Source: Haliotis asinina (Eukaryota > Mollusca > Gastropoda > Lepetellida > Haliotidae). Taken from it: a stretch of DNA of 64,000 nucleotides. Made by a program: the position numbers and the translations under genes. The notes beneath the pieces were generated by a model that worked only from the letters and a program-made list of their open reading frames with translations, searched no databases and was not told the origin of the DNA. Positions 6,100 through 52,400 of the stretch are shown piece after piece; the first letter of the stretch is position 1; each line of letters opens with the position of its first letter. The stretch spans positions 37,719,001 through 37,783,000 of the forward strand of contig NC_090291.1 in assembly GCF_037392515.1 (NCBI RefSeq). Reading direction: 5' to 3'.

Positions 6100-6424
6100 G
6101 CTTCTATTTCACTCACTAGATCATTAACTTCATTTATTGGATCATTAACTTCACTTATTGGATCATTAACTTCATTCACTAGATCATTAACTCCATTCAC
6201 TAGATCATTAACTTCATTCACTGGATCATTAACTTCATTCACTAGATCATTAACTTTATTCACTAGATCATTAACTTCATTCACTAGATCATTAACTTCA
6301 TTCACTAGATCATTAACTTCATTCACTAGATCATTAACTCCATTCACTAGATCATTAACTTCATTCATAAGATCATTAACTCCATTCACTAGATCATTAA
6401 CTCCATTCACTACATCATTAACTT
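6100..6424. repeat. 21-bp minisatellite, left block (about 15 copies)
   Basis: The unit is ATTAACTTCATTCACTAGATC with scattered substitutions (TGGATC for TAGATC, CTCC for CTTC). The identical unit makes up the 2.4-kb array that starts at 12352. This block stops at the TAA run that borders a LINE, and the array resumes beyond the LINEs. The two arrays are therefore best read as one array split by insertion. Confidence 0.9.
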
Positions 6425-6440
6425 CATAATAATAATAATA
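6425..6440. repeat. (TAA)n run at LINE 5' junction
   Basis: Five TAA-type units separate the minisatellite from the truncated LINE copy. They are the remains of the TAA tract into which the LINE inserted. Confidence 0.8.
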
Positions 6441-8080
6441 ATGACTCGAGAAATGTAATACTCTTCATCTGAAACGTGGCAAGGTAACTAATGATGGATC
6501 GGTCATGTTACAAGGGGGAGGAGTTATTGAGCATCTTGTGGAAGATCAGGCCTACACCTTTCTTGGAATGCAAGTTCGAGACAAGCTCCAGAATGCCCAG
6601 ATTCAAGATAAACTTCGGGCCGAGTATAAATCTCGTTTAAAGAAAATCTGGAGTTCAGAGCTAAATGCTCGAAACAAAGTCAAAGCCACCAATACCTTTG
6701 CTGTGCCAGTCCTCTCCTATTTCTTTGGAGTAGTTGATTGGACAAAACAAGACATCCAGAATCTTGACCGCCTGACCAGAAGGATCATGTCTGATAACAG
6801 AGCACACCACCCTCGTTCCTCTCTTAATCGTTTATATATGCCAATCAATTCTGGAGGTCGGGGTTTGATTAATGTGGAAGCTCTTCATGACAGAATGTTA
6901 TTGTGTACTTTTGCACATATTTATTTGTCAGATGATCCTCTGGTGATGCACGTCAAGATTCATGATGAAAGCAAGGAATTCCACAGCTACTTTAAGCGTG
7001 CCAAGGTTGTTGGACACAATTTGAAATTTGAAGTTGATTTTGTTGATGGCGATGTACTGCTGGACGGTACAGTGATGGGAGTAAACCAGGTGAAGTCTTT
7101 CACCAAGTCTGCCCAGAGTCGGTCCTTTGTGGAGAAGCTGTCTGAGAAGCCATTGCATCGTGTGTATATGCAGTGTGTGGAACAGAACAGCAATCCAACC
7201 GACTCCTTCGCCTGGATGAAGTCGGCTGGTCTCAAATGTGAAACTGAGGGCTTCCTTTTTGCTGCTCAGGACCAGTCACTTCCCACTCGCAATCGCCAGA
7301 ATGTGATTCTCAAAGAAAATATCAATATGAAATGTCGTCTTTGCAATGAATTTACAGAGACTGTCCAACACCTTGTCAGTGGATGCCCTTCCTTGGCACA
7401 AACAGCATATCTTAAAAGACATGATGGCATGGCTCGCTGCTTTTATTATCGTCTCCGCCATGCCTGTGGCTTTGACTCTGAGGTCCATCCATGGTACGAC
7501 CCTGAACATGTTCAGGGCGTCCTGGAAAATGATGCTTTTAAACTTCTCTGGAATAGGCCAATATACAGCCTGAGACGAATTCCAGCCAACAAACCTGATC
7601 TTGTCCTTTTTGATAAAGCCAATGAAATTATTTATATCATAGAATTTTCTGTCCCTTTTGACAGCAATGTGATTGGCAAGATTCAGGAAAAGCATGATAA
7701 ATATGCGGACCTCGCCTTTGAAATGTCTCGCTTGCATCCCAAGTACACTGTCGTCAGGCTCCCCATTGTTCTCGGTGCCCTTGGTTTGGTACCTCCTGAT
7801 CTCTTGGCGCAGATCAGGAGAGTGCCCGGGTTCTCCACCGGGAGCACAGCCCTTCTGACAATCTGGGTAATGCAGAAGGCTGCAGTGTTGGGGAGCCTTC
7901 ATATTCTCCGAAAAGTTCTTGGTGGGTTCGACTAGGCAGTGTTTCCTGGGAGAAGTCCCATTCGCTGTCTGGGCTGCGTGTAGAGGGGGTGAGGGCCCTG
8001 AGCTGATGATGAGCTTGACCAGCCTGACTGTGCCAGGATCACCCAAACCCTCTCTGCTGCATTTCTATCTCAATCTGTAA
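6441..8080 (+). mobile_element. R4/Dong-type LINE, 5'-truncated copy
   Basis: The sequence is almost identical to 9857-11494 of the full copy downstream. It starts inside the reverse transcriptase, just after the YMDD region, and runs to the same 3' end. An open frame covers 6505-7935 (about 476 codons). It keeps the CCHC-like zinc knuckle (CRLCNEFTETVQHLVSGC) and the restriction-like endonuclease core (KPDLVLF...IIEFSVP). It lacks the catalytic part of the reverse transcriptase, so it cannot move on its own. Differences from the full copy are few (for example AFK against SYK near the endonuclease), so both insertions are recent. A 5' truncation is typical of target-primed reverse transcription. 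Confidence 0.85.
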
Positions 8081-8109
8081 AAAAAAAATAATAATAATAA
8101 TGATAATAG
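8081..8109. repeat. A-rich/(TAA)n junction between two LINE copies
   Basis: A short A run is followed by TAA units and one TGA variant. It is at once the 3' tail of the truncated copy and the target of the full copy. Confidence 0.75.
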
Positions 8110-11100
8110 CAAAATGCTCAAGTGGCAGCAGACCCAAAACTTCTGATGGACGTCCGCGTCAACCTCTTCCCTCTTCCTGGTGGAAACTCTTCCGAGAAAG
8201 AGCCAATTGGCCCCGAAATTTTGGACCCTCACTCTTCCTCTTCTTCAGTTGCAGACCTTACCGAAAACCCTGTTTATATTTTGTTTACATCTATTTATGA
8301 GGAAATTTGTAATTTACCTTTAGAGAAACGCAGGCCAATTAAACAACTAAACGTGTCTTTTCCCAAAAAGGAAATTGATTTACTTAATGAAATTATCTCT
8401 TTAAAACTTCCTGCGGACTGTTCGTTACATGAAGTAAATTGTTGTGTCTATGCTGCCGCTCGAACTTTGGAGGAACTTCACACAGTTTCCAAAGAACAAT
8501 CTCCCAATACTAAGAACAATAAACGAAAGAAAAACCGGTTTCAAGTTAAACTAACAGAAACAAGAAAACATATTTCCTGGATAGAGCTGTGCCTGAAATT
8601 AAGATCATTAGGGAATCCCATGTCTAAACGACAAAAGGCAATTTGGAGAAAATTAAAATTACAGTACAAAACAACAAAAGAAAAGGTACTGCTCCAAATT
8701 GTCGATTCCCTTAAGGCAAAAATAAAAGTTTGGACTGAAAGAAAGAAAAAATGGGAAAAGAAAAACAAATTTATCAAACAAAATAAACTTTTCAAAAATA
8801 ATGAAAAGCAATTCTATAGGCAACTTAAAACAGGTGGTGATGGTGAGCATGATAAACGGCCTCCCATGGCTGCCAATGAAAGGTTCTGGAAACAGTTGTG
8901 GTCTGTACCCGGCGACTGTAACCTGGAGGCACCATGGGTTAGTGATTATGACCATGCAATGCATGAGAAAGTAACTAGGTCGTTTGTCTGTTACATCTCC
9001 CCAGATTGCCTGAAAAGTGTCATTAAAAAGTCCAAATCTAATACAGCTCCAGGGCCTGATGGCATTCGAAACCGGTATTGGAAACTGTTTCCCTGTGTCC
9101 AAACACCATTGCTTCACTGTTTCAATTCTCTTGTGGACACAGGTGATGTTCCTCCATGGTTCTGCAAAGGTCGCACAATACTCCTTCCCAAAAAGGGAGA
9201 CTTGACTGATCCCAAAAGCTTCCGCCCTATCACGTGTTTGAATACTCAATATAAATTATTCACAGGGTGTTTAACAAACCTCGTGTCATCTTACTGCTCG
9301 TCCAATGAGATAATTTACAGAGAGCAGAAGGGGGCGAGAAAGGGATGTTGGGGGTGCAAGGATCAACTTCTTGTACAGAAAATGATTTTGGAAGAGGCTA
9401 AAACATACCACCGCAACCTCTCCATGTGCTGGATAGACTACAAAAAGGCATATGACTCTGTCCCTCACGAATGGATTCTGAAGTCTCTTCAGTGTATTGA
9501 CCTCCCTGAGCGACTACTTGATTTACTCAAGTCTTTAATGAGCTGCTGGTCGACTCAACTTGAGATGTACTCGCAAGGAGAGGTGCAGACTTCGGAATCT
9601 ATTCCAATCAGAAGGGGAATTTTCCAGGGGGACTCCTTCAGTCCTTTGCTTTTTTGTCTGTCTCTGAATCCTTTGAGTTTTCTGCTCAATAGGGAGGAGG
9701 GCTATCATCCCGGACCTCCTCAGCACAGATCCCCAACACCTCTTACTCATCTCCTCTATATGGATGACATCGAGCTCCTTGTCAAAGGAGAGACCAATTT
9801 GAAAGAACAGGTTCTCCTTGTCGAGTCCTTCTCTAATGATATTGGCATGACATTTGGACTCGACAAATGTAATACTCTTCATCTGAAACGTGGCAAGGTA
9901 ACTAATGATGGATCGGTCAAGTTACAAGGGGGAGGAGTTATTGAGCATCTTGTGGAAGATCAGGCCTACACCTATCTTGGAATGCAAGTTCGAGACACGC
10001 TCCAGAATGCCCAGATTCAAGATAAACTTCGGGCCGAGTATAAATCTCGTTTAAAGAAAATCTGGAGTTCAGAGCTAAATGCTCGAAACAAAGTCAAAGC
10101 CACCAATACCTTTGCTGTGCCAGTCCTCTCCTATTCCTTTGGAGTAGTTGATTGGACAAAACAAGACATCCAGAATCTTGACCGCCTGACCAGAAGGATC
10201 ATGTCTGATAACAGAGCACACCACCCTCGTTCCTCTCTTAATCGTTTATATATGCCAATCAATTCTGGAGGTCGGGGTTTGATTAATGTGGAAGCTCTTC
10301 ATGACAGAATGTTATTGTGTACTTTTGCACATATTTATTTGTCAGATGATCCTCTGGTGATGCACGTCAAGATTCATGATGAAAGCAAGGAATTCCACAG
10401 CTACTTTAAGCGTGCCAAGGTTGTTGGACACAATTTGAAATTTGAAGTTGATTTTGTTGATGGCGATGTACTGCTGGACGGTACAGTGATGGGAGTAAAC
10501 CAGGTGAAGTCTTTCACCAAGTCTGCCCAGAGTCGGTCCTTTGTGGAGAAGCTGTCTGAGAAGCCATTGCATCGTGTGTATATGCAGTGTGTGGAACAGA
10601 ACAGCAATCCAACCGACTCCTTTGCCTGGATGAAGTCGGCTGGTCTCAAATGTGAAACTGAGGGCTTCCTTTTTGCTGCTCAGGACCAGTCACTTCCCAC
10701 TCGCAATCGCCAGAATGTGATTCTTAAAGAAAATATCAATATGAAATGTCGTCTTTGCAATGAATTTACAGAGACTGTCCAACACCTTGTCAGTGGATGC
10801 CCTTCCTTGGCACAAACAGCATATCTTAAAAGACATGATGGCATGGCTCGCTGCTTTTATTATCGTCTCCGCCATGCCTGTGGCTTTGACTCCGAGGTCC
10901 ATCCATGGTATGACCCTGAACATGTCCAGGGCGTCCTGGAAAATGACAGCTACAAACTTCTCTGGAATAGGCCAGTATACAGCCTGAGACGAATTCCAGC
11001 CAACAAACCTGATCTTGTCCTTTTTGATAAAGCCAATGAAATTATTTATATCATAGAATTTTCTGTCCCTTTTGACAGCAATGTGATTGGCAAGATTCAG

Positions 11101-11494
11101 GAAAAGCATGATAAATATGCGGACCTCGCCCTTGAAATGTCTCGCTTGCATCCCAAGTACACTGTCGTCAGGCTCCCCATTGTTCTCGGTGCCCTTGGTT
11201 TGGTACCTCCTGATCTCTTGGCGCAGATGAGGAGAGTGCCCGGGTTCTCCACCGGGAGCACAGCCCTTCTGACAATCTGGGTAATGCAGAAGGCTGCAGT
11301 GTTGGGGAGCCTTCATATTCTCCGAAAAGTTCTTGGTGGGTTCGACTAGGCAGTGTTTCCTGGGAGAAGTCCCATTCGCTGTCTGGGCTGCGTGTAGAGG
11401 GGGCGAGGGCCCTGAGCTGATGATGAGCTTGACCAGCCTGACTGTGCCAGGATCACCCGAACCCTCTCTGCTGCATTTCAATTTTTTAATCTGT
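8110..11494 (+). mobile_element. R4/Dong-type LINE, apparently full-length
   Basis: A non-LTR retrotransposon with a single long ORF and about 110 bp of 3' sequence after the stop. It ends in CTGTAAAATAATAATAA. It begins directly at a (TAA)n run and ends in another, the target preference known for the Dong branch of the R4 clade. The endonuclease is of the restriction-like type rather than the APE type used by L1, L2 or Jockey elements. The 5' untranslated part is only about 36 bp, so loss of a little 5' sequence cannot be excluded. No stop interrupts the ORF. Confidence 0.85.
8146..11349 (+). CDS. LINE polyprotein: reverse transcriptase plus restriction-like endonuclease
   Basis: Single ORF of 1,067 codons from the first in-frame ATG at 8146; an in-frame stop lies upstream at 8107-8109. 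The N-terminal quarter is lysine-rich, probably for nucleic-acid binding. The reverse transcriptase follows. It has APGPDGI and FRPITCL blocks, the first catalytic aspartate in WIDYKKAYDSVP, the GIFQGDSFSPLLF block, and YMDD at residues 538-541. A CCHC-like knuckle starts near residue 868 (C-x2-C, then H and C). The C-terminal endonuclease has a PD pair at 955-956 and a glutamate at 971 in IIEFSVP, the PD-(D/E)XK layout of R2, R4 and NeSL elements. The protein would nick its target and prime reverse transcription from the nick. The clade call rests on domain order plus the TAA flanks; R2, NeSL or HERO relatives are alternatives. Confidence 0.85.
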   Translation: MDVRVNLFPLPGGNSSEKEPIGPEILDPHSSSSSVADLTENPVYILFTSIYEEICNLPLEKRRPIKQLNVSFPKKEIDLLNEIISLKLPADCSLHEVNCCVYAAARTLEELHTVSKEQSPNTKNNKRKKNRFQVKLTETRKHISWIELCLKLRSLGNPMSKRQKAIWRKLKLQYKTTKEKVLLQIVDSLKAKIKVWTERKKKWEKKNKFIKQNKLFKNNEKQFYRQLKTGGDGEHDKRPPMAANERFWKQLWSVPGDCNLEAPWVSDYDHAMHEKVTRSFVCYISPDCLKSVIKKSKSNTAPGPDGIRNRYWKLFPCVQTPLLHCFNSLVDTGDVPPWFCKGRTILLPKKGDLTDPKSFRPITCLNTQYKLFTGCLTNLVSSYCSSNEIIYREQKGARKGCWGCKDQLLVQKMILEEAKTYHRNLSMCWIDYKKAYDSVPHEWILKSLQCIDLPERLLDLLKSLMSCWSTQLEMYSQGEVQTSESIPIRRGIFQGDSFSPLLFCLSLNPLSFLLNREEGYHPGPPQHRSPTPLTHLLYMDDIELLVKGETNLKEQVLLVESFSNDIGMTFGLDKCNTLHLKRGKVTNDGSVKLQGGGVIEHLVEDQAYTYLGMQVRDTLQNAQIQDKLRAEYKSRLKKIWSSELNARNKVKATNTFAVPVLSYSFGVVDWTKQDIQNLDRLTRRIMSDNRAHHPRSSLNRLYMPINSGGRGLINVEALHDRMLLCTFAHIYLSDDPLVMHVKIHDESKEFHSYFKRAKVVGHNLKFEVDFVDGDVLLDGTVMGVNQVKSFTKSAQSRSFVEKLSEKPLHRVYMQCVEQNSNPTDSFAWMKSAGLKCETEGFLFAAQDQSLPTRNRQNVILKENINMKCRLCNEFTETVQHLVSGCPSLAQTAYLKRHDGMARCFYYRLRHACGFDSEVHPWYDPEHVQGVLENDSYKLLWNRPVYSLRRIPANKPDLVLFDKANEIIYIIEFSVPFDSNVIGKIQEKHDKYADLALEMSRLHPKYTVVRLPIVLGALGLVPPDLLAQMRRVPGFSTGSTALLTIWVMQKAAVLGSLHILRKVLGGFD

Positions 11495-11520
11495 AAAATA
11501 ATAATAATAATAATAATAAT
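11495..11520. repeat. (TAA)n run shared by two LINE tails
   Basis: About eight TAA units join the 3' end of the R4/Dong-type element to the 3' end of a minus-strand L2-type LINE. L2-type tails are TAA/ATT-like, so this tract probably came from the older element. Confidence 0.8.
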
Positions 11521-12352
11521 GCACATTTATAATGTGCCTTTTCCACGCCCTTAGGTATGCTCAAAGCGCTACAGAAATAAATAGAAATATGTACAAAGAT
11601 GAAGATGGGTTAAATTATGTGAAGTATAATGAGAAAAGGTGGGTTTTCAGTTTTGCTTTGAAACTGTCAAAACTTTTGGAGTCTTTGATATCACATGGAA
11701 GAGCATTCCAGAGGACTGGTGCTGTGTAGGAGAAGCTGCGGTGTCCGAAAGATTTCAGTCTGTAGGTGGGTATCACAAGAATATTCTGAGAGTTGGAACG
11801 GAGGGTGCGGGCTGGTACATATGGGCGAAGCAGGTTAGACAGGTAGGAAGGGGCCAAGCCACGAAGACATTTATATGTCAGGCAGAGTATTTTGAAGTCA
11901 ATTCTTGCTTTGACTGGTAGCCAGTGGAGTTCTTTCAGGATAGGAGTGATGTGGGCACATTTGGAAGTTCTACTGATAATGCAGGCAGAGGTGTTTTGTA
12001 TCCTCTGCAGTTTAACAGCCAGATTGGAGTTAATGCCAGAAAGAACACTGTTACAATAGTCGAGCCTGGATGTTACCAGAGCTCGAACCAGGGCTTGAGT
12101 TGCTGCAGAAGTCAAGTACTGGCGAATGTTGCTGATCGACCGGAGATGGAAGAAGCATACTTTGCTCACTTGGTTGACATGGGCATTGAACGTCAAAGAA
12201 GAATCAATGTGAACGCCAAGATTCCTCACAACATCTGATGGGCAGATATCCGCATCTGCAACTTTGAGGATGACAGCTTCCACCTTGCTTAGATGTTGTC
12301 TTGTGCCTACAAGGAGAGCTTCGGTTTTCGTGTCGTTCAGCTTGAGCTTAAT
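11521..12352 (-). mobile_element. L2/CR1-type LINE, 5'-truncated
   Basis: The minus strand encodes the C-terminal part of an L2/CR1-superfamily ORF2. In order it shows KLKLNDTKTEALLVG, VRNLGVHIDSSLTF, SRLDYCNSVLSGI, LHWLPVKARIDFKILCLTYK, GLAPSYLSNLL and APVLWNALP. About 245 codons stay open (11615-12352). The 3' end has the typical GCGCTTTGAGCATACC and AAGGCACATTATAAATG motifs and then an ATT-type microsatellite tail. The 5' end is cut abruptly where the 21-bp minisatellite resumes, so the element inserted as a 5'-truncated copy within that array. Confidence 0.85.
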
Positions 12353-14768
12353 TCATTCACTAGATCATTAACTTCATTCACTAGATCATTTACTTTATTC
12401 ACTAGATCATTAACTTCATTCACTAGATCATTAACTTCATTCACTGGATCATTAACTTCATTCACTAGATCATTAACTTCATTCACTAGATCATTAACTT
12501 CATTCACTAGATCATTAACTTCATTCACTGGATCATTAACTTCATTCACTAGATCATTTACTTTATTCACTAGATCATTAACTTCATTCACTGGATCATT
12601 AACTTCATTCACTAGATCATTAACTTCATTCACTAGATCATTAACTTCATTCACTAGATCATTAACTTCATTCACTAGATCATTAACTTCATTCACTGGA
12701 TCATTAACTTCATTCACTAGATCATTAACATCATTCACTAGATCATTAACTTCATTCACTAGATCATTAACTTCATTCACTAGATCATTAACTTCATTCA
12801 CTGGATCATTAACTTCATTCACTAGATCATTAACTTCATTCACTGGATCATTAACTTCATTCACTAGATCATTAACTTCATTCACTAGATCATTAACTTC
12901 ATTCACTAGATCATTTACTTTATTCACTAGATCATTAACTTCATTCACTAGATCATTAACTTTATTCACTAGATCATTAACTTCATTCACTGGATCATTT
13001 TCTTCATTCACTAGATCATTAACTTCATTCACTGGATCATTAACATCATTCACTAGATCATTAACTTCATTCACTAGATCATTAACTTCATTCACTAGAC
13101 CATTAACTTCATTCACTAGATCATTAACTTCATTCACTAGATCATTAACTTCATTCACTAGATCATTAACTAGATCATTAACTTCATTCACTAGATCATT
13201 AACTTCATTCACTAGACCATTAACTTCATTCACTAGATCATTAACTTCATTCACTAGATCATTAACTTCATTCACTAGATCATTAACTTCATTCACTAGA
13301 CCATTAACTTTATTCACTAGATCATTAACTTCATTCACTAGATCATTAACTTCATTCACTAGATCATTAACTTCATTCACTAGATCATTAACTTCATTCA
13401 CTGGATCATTAACATCATTCACTAGATCATTAACTTCATTCACTAGATCATTAACTTCATTCACTAGATCATTAACTTCATTCACTAGACCATTAACTTT
13501 ATTCACTAGATCATTAACTTCATTCACTAGACCATTAACTTCATTCACTGGATCATTAACATCATTCACTAGATCATTAACTTCATTCACTAGATCATTA
13601 ACTTCATTCACTAGACCATTAACTTTATTCACTAGATCATTAACTTCATTCACTAGACCATTCACTTCATTCACTGGATCATTAACTTCATTCACTAGAT
13701 CATTAACTTCATTCACTAGACCATTAACTTCATTCACTGGATCAATAACTTCATTCACTGGATCATTAACTTCATTCACTAGATCATTAACTTCATTCAC
13801 TGGATCATTAACTTTATTCACTAGATCATTAAGTTCATTCACTAGATCATTAACTTCATTCACTGGATCATTAACTTCATTCACTAGATCATTAACTTCA
13901 TTCACTAGATCATTAACTTCATTCACTAGATCATTAACTGCATTCACTAGATCACTAACTTCATTCACTAGATCATTAACTGCATTCACTAGATCACTAA
14001 CTTCATTCACTGGATCATTAACTTCATTCACTAGATCATTAACTTCATTCACTGGATCATTAACTTCATTCACTAGATCATTAACTTCATTCACTAGATC
14101 ATTAACTTCATTCACTGGATCATTAACTTCATTCACTAGATCATTAACTTCATTCACTAGATCATTAACTTCATTCACTGGATCATTAACTTCATTCACT
14201 AGATCATTAACTTCATTCACTAGATCATTTACTTCATTCACTAGATCATTTACTTCATTCACTGGATCATTAACTTCATTCACTAGACCATTCACTTCAT
14301 TCACTGGATCATTAACTTCATTCACTAGATCATTAACTTCATTCACTGGACCATTAACATCATTCATTGGATCATTAACTTTATTCACTAGATCATTAAC
14401 TTCATTCACTAGATCATTAACTTCATTCACTAGATCATTAACTTCATTCACTGGATCATTAACTTCATTCACTAGATCATTAACTTCATTCACTGGATCA
14501 TTAACTTCATTCACTGGATCATTAACTTCATTCACTAGATCATTAACTTCACTGGATCATTAACTTCACTGGATCATTAACTTCATTCACTGGATCATTA
14601 TCCTCATTCACTGGATCATTAACTTCACTGGATCATTAACTTCATTCACTGGATCATTAACTTCATTCACTGGATCATTAACTTCACTGGATCATTATCC
14701 TCATTCACTGGATCATTAACTTCATTCACTAGATCATTTACTTTATTCACTGGATCATTAACTTCAAT
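12353..14768. repeat. 21-bp minisatellite, main array (about 115 copies)
   Basis: Same unit as the block at 6100-6424. Two main variants alternate irregularly (CTAGATC and CTGGATC), with rarer forms in which TTC becomes TTT, ATC or TGC. Between about 14545 and 14700 a shortened 17-bp form (TTCACT for TTCATTCACT) appears. Since 21 is a multiple of three, both strands stay open for more than 730 codons, reading TSFTRSL on plus and NDLVNEV on minus. Most variants change the amino acid in either frame, which argues against coding. Confidence 0.95.
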
Positions 14769-15240
14769 CTCTATATTATTAATTTTCTTAATAACTCTCT
14801 TAACTTTCTTCCATGTTACAGAAATTAACAGAAATGTATGTGTACCGAAGCCATAAATACTTTATACACATCCTCAAATTTACCCTTATTATTTGTCCAG
14901 AAAGGATTATGGTATTATGACTTGGCAAGCCAAATCTGACTCACAGTCCCTGAACTGCATCATTATCATCCCTGCAATACTAAGCACTGGTCTACCGGTG
15001 AAGCCAAGCTTGTTGTTCACAAACATTCCAACATCAAACGTCTGTAACCAGTGAGTTTCAGTAATTATCTTGATCTAGGCCAATCTGGTATGAAAACATT
15101 CTCTGGTTGAGAGGCCCATAGGAATAACTACTGATAAGATTAACCAACGATAAAGACTCTCTGAACTGAGTACATACCCTAATTATTCAGCTGATCAAAG
15201 CAGCTCATATGCCATGTCCTCCTTTGGCCATAAACTTACA
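14769..15240. other. intergenic, nothing recognised
   Basis: The array decays into TA-rich sequence and then single-copy-looking DNA. No exon or element ends were seen. Confidence 0.4.
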
Positions 15241-18435: not shown

Positions 18436-19286
18436 GCAATGTAAAACTAAACTTATTCACTCACTCACCCATCCTGCAATGCTAAAGGGTTAAATGAAGC
18501 AAGTTAAGATTTCCTCAGGTTCTGAATCTCCCATCTTTCTGGGGCTTCCTTTGTTTTTATCAAAATTTTAAGTAGTTAAAAGCTAAACGTTAATCTGGAG
18601 CATAACAGTAATACGTAGCAATAAACACAAGGGCGAAGTTTCAGCATGAGTCGACTAGGTCCATGAGACTGACAATATCACAAATATTCAAATATCACAA
18701 TTTTGTGTCCCATAAAATTACATGTAGTTATAAAATCGGTGAACAAAGCCATGCTTCCACTTTTCCAACTGCTTTCTAAGCTAACACACACGTAGATCAC
18801 TTCGGTCAATGCAGCCAATAAGAATCGCCAGACCCCAGCTGATTTTCCGCTGAAATCACTATCATCTGTTGCCATCGCAGTGCTCAACCTGTTATTACAG
18901 AAGGTACAATAATAATTTAATGTTATCTAATAATAGCAGTCCACTTTCATAGCTCCATTCCAGGATAAATATCTTGCTCAAAGTGCTATTAACATTACTA
19001 CCCTGGATAACCCAAGCTGCCTGTGCGGCACAAGAATTTTAATAGTCACATGACATATCCTACCTGGTACCCATTTTCAGCTGGGTGAACTGAGGTGAGA
19101 CCACATGTATGACATGTGCTTCATTGTGGGACAGGACTGAAGTCCAAGACACTCATGGATCAAACTGTCAAACTGGGTTAGTCAACCATCTATCGACTAT
19201 CTGTGACCAATGTTGCTTAAACTTTAACTGATTTGTGACCTGAGCTCTATGCACAGGACCACACTCCACAACAGTGTTGCTTCAAA
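18436..19286. other. intergenic; contains family F-related fragment
   Basis: Near 18493-18560 it matches part of the foldback repeat at 51.4 kb (GATTTCCTCAGGTTCTGAATC, TCTGGGGCTTCCTTT). Otherwise no gene or array is visible before the satellite begins. Confidence 0.4.
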
Positions 19287-22200
19287 ATGCATTTGTTCAA
19301 ACTTGTCCACAAAAAGAAAACATATCAACAGCTTTGTAAATGGACAGTATGACAAGAGACACCCATCACTGAAACATCACATTATTACCATTATTATTAG
19401 CAACAGGTGTATCAGACCAGCTACCACTGTCTGTTCTTTATATCATATTTGTGAATTGCTGCACTTTATAAATGCATGTATTATTATCATCAGTCTGTTC
19501 TTAAAAATGCATTTGTTCAAACTTGTCCACAAAAAGAAAACATATCAACAGCTTTGTAAATGGACTTATGACAAGAGACACCCATCACTGAAACATCATA
19601 TTATTACCATTATTATTAGCAACAGGTGTATCAGACCAGCTACCACTGTCTGTTCTTTATATCATATTTGTGAATTGCTGCACTTTATAAATGCATGTAT
19701 TATTATCATCAGTCTGTTCTTAAAAATGCATTTGTTCAAACTTGTCCACAAAAAGAAAACATATCAACAGCTTTGTAAATGGACTTATGACAAGAGACAC
19801 CCATCACTGAAACATCATATTATTACCATTATTATTAGCAACAGGTATATCAGACCAGCTACCACTGTCTGTTCTTTATATCATATTTGTGAATTGCTGC
19901 ACTTTATAAATGCATGTATTATTATCATCAGTCTGTTCTTAAAAATGCATTTGTTCAAACTTGTCCACAAAAAGAAAACATATCAACAGCTTTGTAAATG
20001 GACTTATGACAAGAGACACCCATCACTGAAACATCATATTATTACCATTATTATTAGCAACAGGTGTATCAGACCAGCTACCACTGTCTGTTCTTTATAT
20101 CATATTTGTGAATTGCTGCACTTTATAAATGCATGTATTATTATCATCAGTCTGTTCTTAAAAATGCATTTGTTCAAACTTGTCCACAAAAAGAAAACAT
20201 ATCAACAGCTTTGTAAATGGACTTATGACAAGAGACACCCATCACTGAAACATCATATTATTACCATTATTATTAGCAACAGGTGTATCAGACCAGCTAC
20301 CACTGTCTGTTCTTTATATCATATTTGTGAATTGCTGCACTTTATAAATGCATGTATTATTATCATCAGTCTGTTCTTAAAAATGCATTTGTTCAAACTT
20401 GTCCACAAAAAGAAAACATATCAACAGCTTTGTAAATGGACTTATGACAAGAGACACCCATCACTGAAACATCATATTATTACCATTATTATTAGCAACA
20501 GGTGTATCAGACCAGCTACCACTGTCTGTTCTTTATATCATATTTGTGAATTGCTGCACTTTATAAATGCATGTATTATTATCATCAGTCTGTTCTTTAA
20601 AATGCATTTGTTCAAACTTGTCCACAAAAAGAAAACATATCAACAGCTTTGTAAATGGACTTATGACAAGAGACACCCATCACTGAAACATCATATTATT
20701 ACCATTATTATTAGCAACAGGTGTATCAGACCAGCTACCACTGTCTGTTCTTTATATCATATTTGTGAATTGCTGCACTTTATAAATGCATGTATTATTA
20801 TCATCAGTCTGTTCTTAAAAATGCATTTGTTCAAACTTGTCCACAAAAAGAAAACATATCAACAGCTTTGTAAATGGACTTATGACAAGAGACACCCATC
20901 ACTGAAACATCATATTATTACCATTATTATTAGCAACAGGTGTATCAGACCAGCTACCACTGTCTGTTCTTTATATCATATTTGTGAATTGCTGCACTTT
21001 ATAAATGCATGTATTATTATCATCAGTCTGTTCTTAAAAATGCATTTGTTCAAACTTGTCCACAAAAAGAAAACATATCAACAGCTTTGTAAATGGACTT
21101 ATGACAAGAGACACCCATCACTGAAACATCATATTATTACCATTATTATTAGCAACAGGTGTATCAGACCAGCTACCACTGTCTGTTCTTTATATCATAT
21201 TTGTGAATTGCTGCACTTTATAAATGCATGTATTATTATCATCAGTCTGTTCTTAAAAATGCATTTGTTCAAACTTGTCCACAAAAAGAAAACATATCAA
21301 CAGCTTTGTAAATGGACAGTATGACAAGAGACACCCATCACTGAAACATCATATTATTACCATTATTATTAGCAACAGGTGTATCAGACCAGCTACCACT
21401 GTCTGTTCTTTATATCATATTTGTGAATTGCTGCACTTTATAAATGCATGTATTATTATCATCAGTCTGTTCTTAAAAATGCATTTGTTCAAACTTGTCC
21501 ACAAAAAGAAAACATATCAACAGCTTTGTAAATGGACTTATGACAAGAGACACCCATCACTGAAACATCATATTATTACCATTATTATTAGCAACAGGTG
21601 TATCAGACCAGCTACCACTGTCTGTTCTTTATATCATATTTGTGAATTGCTGCACTTTATAAATGCATGTATTATTATCATCAGTCTGTTCTTAAAAATG
21701 CATTTGTTCAAACTTGTCCACAAAAAGAAAACATATCAACAGCTTTGTAAATGGACTTATGACAAGAGACACCCATCACTGAAACATCATATTATTACCA
21801 TTATTATTAGCAACAGGTGTATCAGACCAGCTACCACTGTCTGTTCTTTATATCATATTTGTGAATTGCTGCACTTTATAAATGCATGTATTATTATCAT
21901 CAGTCTGTTCTTAAAAATGCATTTGTTCAAACTTGTCCACAAAAAGAAAACATATCAACAGCTTTGTAAATGGACTTATGACAAGAGACACCCATCACTG
22001 AAACATCATATTATTACCATTATTATTAGCAACAGGTGTATCAGACCAGCTACCACTGTCTGTTCTTTATATCATATTTGTGAATTGCTGCACTTTATAA
22101 ATGCATGTATTATTATCATCAGTCTGTTCTTAAAAATGCATTTGTTCAAACTTGTCCACAAAAAGAAAACATATCAACAGCTTTGTAAATGGACTTATGA

Positions 22201-23232
22201 CAAGAGACACCCATCACTGAAACATCATATTATTACCATTATTATTAGCAACAGGTGTATCAGACCAGCTACCACTGTCTGTTCTTTATATCATATTTGT
22301 GAATTGCTGCACTTTATAAATGCATGTATTATTATCATCAGTCTGTTCTTAAAAATGCATTTGTTCAAACTTGTCCACAAAAAGAAAACATATCAACAGC
22401 TTTGTAAATGGACAGTATGACAAGAGACACCCATCACTGAAACATCATATTATTACCATTATTATTAGCAACAGGTGTATCAGACCAGCTACCACTGTCT
22501 GTTCTTTATATCATATTTGTGAATTGCTGCACTTTATAAATGCATGTATTATTATCATCAGTCTGTTCTTAAAAATGCATTTGTTCAAACTTGTCCACAA
22601 AAAGAAAACATATCAACAGCTTTGTAAATGGACTTATGACAAGAGACACCCATCACTGAAACATCATATTATTACCATTATTATTAGCAACAGGTGTATC
22701 AGACCAGCTACCACTGTCTGTTCTTTATATCATATTTGTGAATTGCTGCACTTTATAAATGCATGTATTATTATCATCAGTCTGTTCTTAAAAATGCATT
22801 TGTTCAAACTTGTCCACAAAAAGAAAACATATCAACAGCTTTGTAAATGGACTTATGACAAGAGACACCCATCACTGAAACATCATATTATTACCATTAT
22901 TATTAGCAACAGGTGTATCAGACCAGCTACCACTGTCTGTTCTTTATATCATATTTGTGAATTGCTGCACTTTATAAATGCATGTATTATTATCATCAGT
23001 CTGTTCTTAAAAATGCATTTGTTCAAACTTGTCCACAAAAAGAAAACATATCAACAGCTTTGTAAATGGACTTATGACAAGAGACACCCATCACTGAAAC
23101 ATCATATTATTACCATTATTATTAGCAACAGGTGTATCAGACCAGCTACCACTGTCTGTTCTTTATATCATATTTGTGAATTGCTGCACTTTATATATGC
23201 ATGTATTATTATCATCAGTCTGTTCTTAAAAA
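19287..23232. repeat. 219-bp satellite, about 18 tandem copies
   Basis: Each unit begins ATGCATTTGTTCAAACTTG and ends CATCAGTCTGTTCTTAAAA. The period is 219 bp, except for three 220-bp units in which GGACTTATG is replaced by GGACAGTATG (near 19343, 21316 and 22412, that is units 1, 10 and 15). Copies are nearly identical; I saw only isolated changes, such as GTGTATC to GTATATC near 19846. A period divisible by three keeps long frames open (691, 381 and 306 codons), each broken by a 220-bp unit, so coding is unlikely. There is no terminal inverted repeat at the edges. Copy number may be compressed in assembly. Confidence 0.95.
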
Positions 23233-23310
23233 TAACACAGGTATGCATTCAGATTATCCTCCCTAAGTCAGAAGCATTGTTGTTACAATAGCACTAGTAA
23301 TAGTACAGTG

Positions 23311-49400: not shown

Positions 49401-52400
49401 ATATTACACAGAAAATTGACCTTTGAAGATAAAACATGTAATCCAACCGATAGATTAATTTTATCCATAAAATGTACTATAGAGGTTAATAACTTTATTC
49501 TTTTTGATGATGTCTTGTTGTAAATTATTAAAACACAAGCTATATGATTTCATTGTTAAGTTGCAGGTTATGTAATGGTATATCTATTTGCTAAGGGTTC
49601 TGCCCTGACCCCCTTGAATTGTATTCTGTTGTATTTTGATTACCTTCAAGTCTTGTTAATCTGACATCGTCCGTTGCACAGCAGATTGTCTGATTAACGG
49701 GGATGTTGGACTAAATAATTGAGACTAACTTACGTTTTTTTTTATTTCTTACCAACAAAAGCTTTGGATAAAGCCAATTGTGGGATAAACGGAGGTCGAA
49801 TTAATGAAACTTGACTGTAGGATTTCTAGGGGATAGCGTTTAAATTTAGTATTATGTTTGGTATAGGGTTAGGGTTGGTTTTATGTGAAAAAATATCTAT
49901 TCAAGCATTGAATGATTAAAAAACAGGGCTTATGGGTGGAAATCTTTCCATCTATTGTGGTATTTGCACAAAGATCACTGGAGCAGATTTGAATTATTTG
50001 TAATTTTCTGTATGCACCTGGCCAGAATAATATCAGCTATGATCCCAATTATCCAATACATGACTATAGCTCTTGTTTGTTTGTGTTGGCATTCTGATTG
50101 AGTAATGCAACAGTTTTTACTTATATGACTTTATGTAGTCCACTGAACCTTTTCTCAGACAGAAATAACATTTGAAATATACAGTTTATTGTGATCTTGC
50201 TCTTACCAAGCTAATAAGATAGCAACAATTTTAACCATAAAATTGACATGCAAGTGTTTAGTAGTAAAAGTGTAATCGCATTGCTAGGCCTAGTCTGTCT
50301 CAAAGTCCATGGAACCATATTATTTTCCCAACTGCCTCACCCTCCCTGCTATGTGAAAACTTCATATAAAGCACGGTTCTGAATCTCCCATGTCATTGGG
50401 GTTCCTTTTCATTTTAAATGAGTTTATTTGTTACTATCAAAATTATAAATATTCAGAGACTACACTTAGTCTGAGCAAGGCTGTGTGGCATTTCAGTGAC
50501 TTAATGTTGATACCCTGATTATTTTCACTACACTGCAAGCACAGTTGTTAGCAGTATGAAACATCAACATGGTAAATTTCATTAAAGATATTTTTGTATG
50601 AACAAAACTGTAGTCTTTGTGATTTGCATTGTACATGATATCAGTATCAAATATATTGATAACATTTCATCAGTGTGAAAAGGATGTAATTTTTCTTTTT
50701 TGTATTTTGTGTAAGGACTTCTTCACTGACTGCCATCAAACTGCTTAGAGAGGCATTAAACGAACAGTATTGCAGTATGTTTAGTATATGTGATAGATTG
50801 TCACAAGTATTTTCTATTGCCTGTTCTTTGTTTGAGTTATGTACCCTACCAGGTAGGGCTTAAAAAATAAGTCTTAAGACTCATTGAGTTGTTCCTCCCC
50901 ACGGAAATCTTTAGTAAAAGGCGAAAGATTTATGCGAGGTGAAGAGAAACCAGAGCTACAGTGGAGAAGTTTAAATCAGATTGTATACCATCCCGACAGT
51001 GTTTTCAGGTCAGGTGACTTCACAGAGAAATCCTGATAATTATAATCACATGACGTTTGAATCATGTGTTACTTCCACACTTAAGAATCTAGCCTGTTTG
51101 AACTCATTTGTGATATTTTTAAAAAATTTAACTGATGACCCGTAATAAAGCTACAGTCACATGATGTGAACATTTGAACACAATGAGATATACGTTTCCC
51201 TCCAGATCCAGGTTTGAGCGTAACTGAGCTATTTTTAGCACCGCCTTTGTGAGCCAGTATCAGCTAGTGGTGTCAGCTGTGTCCTCACAGTAGGGCTATA
51301 TATAGATAGTCAGAAACAGGTCCAATTCAGCAACTGAGCCATGACCAACATGAATAGTCTGAGACTAATCTAAATATTAGTCTCTCTCACAGTCTCCGAG
51401 CCTTATTATTTTCCATACAGCCTAGCCCTATCTGCAGTGATTAAGTCTTAAATGGAGCAAGTCTAGATTTCCTCAGGTTCTGAATCTCTGCTCTCCTTGG
51501 GGCTCCTTTTCAATTTTACGATGTGAGTGAGAGCCCAACTCAATTGAACATTTTCAATTAAAATGGGTTAGTTACTATCAAAGTTACATATATTCAGTGA
51601 CCAAGTGTTAGTCTAGCTAAGGATATGTACATGTGATAGAAACAAATAACTGTTTAACTAGAAAAGGAGACACGGTGAAAGAGAAGATTCTGAATTTGGG
51701 GAATATGTAGACTTGCTTCATTTAGGGCTTTAACATCACGGAGCAACTGGAGAGGAGAGGAAATATAATATTATTGAGGAACTGCGAACCTGACTAGTAC
51801 AATGTATATCCCAACTACAGTCTCTTAATCAACATCTGCAATGACTGGAAGTTACGTTTGTTATGAAATAACACAAGCTGCTGGTACCTTCCAAAAAGTA
51901 ATCAAAGCTGTTTGTGCTTGTGTAGGATCAGTTTTTCTGCTATCCAATCACAGATTATGTATTATTGCTAGACAAACTTCTCTAATGTGTTTTTTAATGC
52001 TTGTCTTCTCTAAATCTATGTTTTATTTTATATGTAATTTTGTTTTTGTGATATCACTAAGTAGATTTTGCTGTAAAATGTTTATTAAATGGTTGAAAAT
52101 TTTAGAAATACATAGAGTAGCATCTTCCCAGGAACTGCATGGGCAAGAGATAATATTGAAATGTGATAAGCATTAGAGCTGTGATGATGTATCATTGCAT
52201 CAATAATCATGATACTTTATCGGACAATAAATATATTAGCGATACTTTTTTCGTATTGTGATACATGTCATTGACCTTAAAATTATTAACTTTCATTAAA
52301 AATTGACGGTTATATCAAAACTGTTGCTTGCCAAATTCAGTGACTGTGTAGATTTACCAACGTGACTAAATTTCTACAAGCCACAATCAGCCTCCGCAAG

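Follow-up and report, generated by a model that had tools for sequence, protein, structure and literature searches.

How do two kinds of long interspersed nuclear element (LINE) come to lie one inside the other, and in which order did they arrive? The question is raised by a locus of the abalone Haliotis asinina, contained in a 64,000-nucleotide stretch of DNA (G000:C12:37719001-37783000, NC_090291.1; hereafter the window), in which two copies of an R4/Dong-type LINE lie in the tail of an antisense L2-type LINE, and the same 21-bp tandem array flanks the whole composite. An earlier note, made from the sequence of this locus, had proposed that the array came first, the L2-type LINE second and the R4/Dong-type copies last. 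Our analysis, extended to a genome of 1.14 Gb in 159 contigs, makes it highly probable that the array was split by the L2-type LINE and that the R4/Dong-type element then inserted twice into the L2 TAA tail.

Anatomy of the nested locus and order of insertion

From left to right, the locus consists of the 21-bp array, a TAA run, R4/Dong copy 1, a second TAA run, R4/Dong copy 2, a third TAA run, the antisense L2-type fragment and again the 21-bp array. According to Tandem Repeats Finder (TRF), the left array block (6108..6427, plus strand) comprises 15.2 copies of a unit specific to this locus, and the right block (12352..14782, plus strand) about 116 units, TRF placing the start of the latter at 12348, inside the L2 edge. 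A two-unit 42-mer probe, searched with up to 3 mismatches against both the whole genome and the window, matched 114 times genome-wide and 114 times in the window, against an expectation of 0 from shuffling. At this probe sensitivity, the array marks a single locus, and since all genome-wide matches fall within the window, the left and right blocks represent one array split by an insertion. The earlier description of one unit on both outer sides is thereby confirmed, and its two block ends are moved to 6427 (left) and 14782 (right).

The edges of the insert carry the trace of this event. As read from the sequence, a 5-bp target duplication, TTCAT, is present on the plus strand at both outer edges of the whole insert (6423..6427 and 12352..12356), where an unbroken array would have one copy; at the L2 5' junction there is a single additional base, 12351. 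No TAA repeat into which R4 could have gone directly is present in the array unit. It is because the array is single-locus, the duplication brackets the composite and the array unit lacks TAA runs that we read the order as array, L2, R4.

The L2-type LINE is a 5'-truncated, minus-strand fragment (11521..12350; open reading frame (ORF) 11615-12352) with its 3' end at 11521, where the tail motif faces the left array, just as the earlier note had it. Scored against a model of 20 other tails, this 3' end reaches 51.6 bits, revealing a conserved 3' stem. The fragment is identical at 827 of 831 bases to L202, a copy elsewhere in the genome with RVT_1 (5.5e-29) in its frame of 690 aa, and a protein search returned at least 25 matches at ≥97% identity, the window fragment included and some of them partial; by itself, the window fragment has no Pfam match. 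We provisionally class the element as L2-type from its general features, the reverse transcriptase (RT) being seen in the close relative L202 and the 3' stem in the window copy.

Both R4 copies, on the plus strand, interrupt the L2 (TAA/AAT)n tail: its left part (6428..6442) is the TAA run next to the left array, upstream of copy 1, and its right part (11498..11520) the TAA run that adjoins the 3' end of L2, downstream of copy 2. Copy 1 (6443..8081) is 5'-truncated, with an ORF (6445-7935, 496 aa) covering the zinc knuckle and endonuclease part, and is separated from copy 2 (8109..11497) by a TAA run with one break (about 8088..8108). The two are 98.4% identical over 1642 bp. Copy 2 contains an ORF of 1079 aa (8110-11349) matching RVT_1 (4e-27) and zf-RVT in Pfam, its closest solved relatives being R2 proteins (4e-36). 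The motifs CRLCNEFTETVQHLVSGC at 880, KPD...EF at 966 and KHDKY at 999 are those of the CCHC knuckle and the PD-type endonuclease by the usual motif definitions. Copy 2 thus unites an RT, a C-terminal CCHC knuckle and a restriction-like endonuclease, the combination expected of R4/Dong. It lacks about 0.47 kb of its 5' end, being 464-476 nt shorter than seven longer copies (those measurable among eight tried). The earlier note was right about two R4/Dong-type copies bordered by TAA runs in the L2 tail, with the correction that copy 2 is 5'-truncated as well.

In the longer R4 copies, the 5' start can be drawn as a hepatitis delta virus (HDV)-like ribozyme beginning at the junction, a reading of the sequence rather than proof of a ribozyme. 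By script, 16 of 17 distinct R4 5' ends accommodate a 7-bp P1, and the 17th (L015) does so by eye, with one more G-U pair; these ends are exact 10-mer matches among loci L001-L060, the doubled end of L014 being counted once. For P2, P3 and P4 the pairing was assigned by eye, one P2 strand being missing in L028, and a search of six loci against Rfam yielded no ribozyme. Neither window copy retains this ribozyme-like part or the N-terminal part, where a divergent Myb/SANT-like domain is reported for the R4/Dong clade in PMC7998251. At three places in G000, C1:5430141-5430225, C4:63866107-63866148 and C11:26273073-26273110 (L014), the 19-base R4 5' end is tandemly repeated 2-4 times, like a stutter.

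R4/Dong-type junctions and TAA runs across the genome

Allowing up to 3 mismatches, the R4 3' end occurs at 2024 places genome-wide (1025 + 999). From these, 80 junctions were sampled, all from the first 100 exact places in the list; the sample includes near-duplicate pairs such as L062/L063, L066/L067, L087/L088 and L096/L097. At 26 of the 80 junctions, the R4 3' end leads into a further R4 copy of like orientation, and at 15 into an L2-type tail, so that about half of the sampled landings (41/80) adjoin a retrotransposon end. All 15 junctions with an L2-type tail are antiparallel (two-sided p 6e-5). In 70 of the 80, a TAA-type run two or more units long lies within 45 nt, and in none (0/80) does an ATT-type run lie within 60 nt; many full R4 5' ends are likewise preceded by TAA. 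The R4/Dong-type element accordingly inserts into (TAA)n. L2-like junctions recognized by eye only, lacking a model match, were not counted, and neither was a similarity-ranked set in which many R4 ends lead into R4, this set being biased.

The same association is seen from the side of the tails. Nine R4 end words precede the tail motif of the window L2 (two variants, genome-wide, window included), and an R4 end adjoins 18 of 583 strict generic L2 tails, the window's own tail missing the strict pattern; reversed-pattern controls gave 0 for both counts. With an end word of 9 bases, we estimate about 0.1 chance neighbours among the 583 tails. A count of the L2 tail motif next to AATAAT (113 + 43 matches) included overlapping matches and was left unused. 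The proposed use of one LINE's tail as the landing site for another class of LINE recurs beyond this locus, at 15/80 junctions and 18/583 strict tails. R4 ends also follow one another: 46 of 106 exact R4 5'-end places lie within 33 nt of a preceding R4 3' end, where 106 overstates the R4 copy number because the 19-mer occurs more than once at some 5' ends. The double nest of the window has a counterpart at L203 (G000:C4:7729200-7735800), where two R4 pieces follow each other in another L2-type tail.

No preference of R4 for L2 tails over other TAA was found. As a background, we took 40 TAA runs from the first 45 listed, of 634; because the five beside known R4 places were skipped, the six of 40 that lead into R4 give a low estimate of the R4 share. 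Sixteen background runs abut an L2-type tail; L174, one of 17 background model matches, lies upstream of its run and was not counted. L2-type tails make up 15/54 of the non-self R4 landings vs 16/34 of the non-R4 TAA runs, a difference in the direction opposite to preference (p 0.07). At a common cut-off of 13.6 bits, set by the weakest junction match, the background share is 13/34, three background matches scoring lower; several weak L2-tail matches in both sets have E-values of 0.05 to 0.4. Where the TAA run at the landing is at least 12 nt long, 7 of 16 landings are in L2. R4/Dong follows TAA, with no sign of a special attraction to L2, and much of the TAA available to it lies in L2-type tails.

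Taken together with the anatomy of the locus, these junctions suggest how the nest may have formed. An R4/Dong-type LINE of the TAA-targeting kind would have inserted twice into the L2 tail by target-primed reverse transcription (TPRT), with 5' truncation each time. Antiparallel insertion relative to L2 would be expected, as only the TAA strand of the tail would offer the right target. R4 copies being themselves flanked by TAA runs, each landing would leave new landing sites, and R4 tails may serve as targets for later R4 copies, giving rise to head-to-tail chains.

Rival readings of the order and of the two copies

The order could in principle be reversed, R4 having inserted first into a TAA run and an L2-type LINE then into the TAA tail of R4. 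R4 3' ends are abundant, with 2024 places, and if the L2 tail paired with a TAA strand, the result would likewise be antiparallel, so the genome-wide junctions fit both orders equally. At this locus, however, the L2 target is the 21-bp array, which has no TAA run, and TTCAT lies at the outer edges of the whole composite; moreover, the 16 non-R4 TAA runs abutting an L2-type tail have no R4 downstream. We therefore regard the reverse order as very improbable. Still less credence is due to the view that the junctions are artefacts of assembly: repeats on all sides might mislead an assembler, but the locus lies in a 58 Mb contig, and junctions of both kinds are found repeatedly, with varied TAA counts, at 18 strict places for R4 against an L2 tail and at 46 for R4 against an R4 5' end.

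Whether copies 1 and 2 represent one event or two is a separate matter. They differ by 24 substitutions, of which 0 and 1 are private relative to the other fetched copies; private changes being so few, both copies are young. They end in different 3' untranslated region (UTR) types, have unequal 5' truncation points and resemble each other no more closely than unrelated copies do (a fraction of 0.33 of the others reaches the same likeness or more). The two come from different source types, and we favour two separate R4 events. Template jumping by R2-type reverse transcriptases has been reported, and one round of TPRT passing from one RNA to a second might have made both copies, which stand head to tail with a short spacer; yet the 24 substitutions, with 0 and 1 private, mean that the copies have different sources, and the spacer has its own TAA run, leaving a single event unlikely. 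Local duplication by unequal crossing-over is barely credible here, being contradicted by the unequal truncation points and by the different 3' UTR types, although such arrays seem real elsewhere, as at C12:51.939-51.947 Mb with its three identical R4-to-R4 junctions. In that array (G000:C12:51939334-51947107), the three junctions, each from an R4 3' end to a full 5' end, are spaced by exactly 3,870 bp, that is, one full R4 element plus a short spacer, which makes at least two complete units head to tail.

Several observations weigh against a history of successive insertions into the array and then the L2 tail. The order at the locus is read from one assembly, and the duplication is short and, because its target is a tandem array, ambiguous in length (5 + n x 21 bp are possible). 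No duplication is readable at three other R4/L2 loci (L203; L204 with L205; L206), the right flank of L203 being a tandem repeat and the L2 end not being reached at L204 with L205 or at L206, so that the order L2-then-R4 is unproved elsewhere. Among the sampled junctions, 39/80 lie in other sequence, neither R4 nor L2-type, and at 10/80 a two-unit TAA-type run is lacking within 45 nt. A template jump from one RNA to a different one could yield two truncated copies at once, and 8 of 31 neighbour comparisons, which are non-independent because several loci overlap, are unusually alike (fraction ≤0.08), some chains being locally duplicated or concatemeric. The single-locus array and the bracketing TTCAT nonetheless uphold the order given in the earlier note, array first, L2 second and R4/Dong last; the mutual order of the two R4 copies is not readable, their private substitutions being too few to age them.

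Elsewhere in the window, 18 copies of a 219-bp unit form a tandem array with 99% matches (19275-23233, TRF), with a weak L2-type tail (18939-18994, E 0.21) beside it. A U5 spliceosomal RNA gene or copy is located on the minus strand (50843-50958, 90.2 bits).

Known systems and meaning for R4/Dong elements

Targeting of TAA by R4/Dong, molluscs included, is already known. In PMC7998251, (TAA)n is given as the Dong target in Darwinula stevensoni, as in most insects, molluscs and cnidarians, and PMC3774820 reports a Dong ribozyme with TAA repeats upstream. The element described here resembles Dong of Darwinula and of molluscs in carrying an RT, a CCHC knuckle and a restriction-like endonuclease motif in one frame, in having TAA runs on both sides, and in the longer copies' 5' end, which can be drawn as an HDV-like ribozyme. 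It differs in that its TAA is seen to come in good part from the tails of other retrotransposons and from its own copies, with head-to-tail chains, for which the literature searched gave no parallel. The L2-type LINE of the window, for its part, is like UnaL2, which ends in TGTAA repeats (PMC3747384), and other L2-type LINEs in its conserved 3' stem with a short tandem repeat behind it, and in its 5' truncation; it differs from UnaL2 in that its tail is (TAA)n on the antisense strand and a target for another LINE.

That LINEs make microsatellites is a likeness to the RTE LINEs of Lepidoptera, which generate microsatellite families according to PMC2887409. The same paper holds the TAA targets of Dong to be pre-existing and not increased by Dong insertion, unlike the situation here, where L2-type and R4 tails supply TAA targets. 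Use of another LINE's tail, or of its own tails, by R4/Dong was not found in the literature searched, most subscription papers lying outside the reach of that search.

The common view is that target-specific elements exploit repeats of the host. In this genome, a good part of the target is made by the element's own copies and by other mobile elements, and a single nested locus, in which a single-locus array gives an unusually clear insertion order, leads to a measurable dependence between two kinds of LINE. It is an evenly balanced proposal that the niche of R4/Dong is built by retrotransposons: L2 tails and the element's own copies would add TAA, so that the pool of targets may grow with the parasite, and readthrough RNA from the chains might be freed by the 5' ribozyme of every full-length copy.

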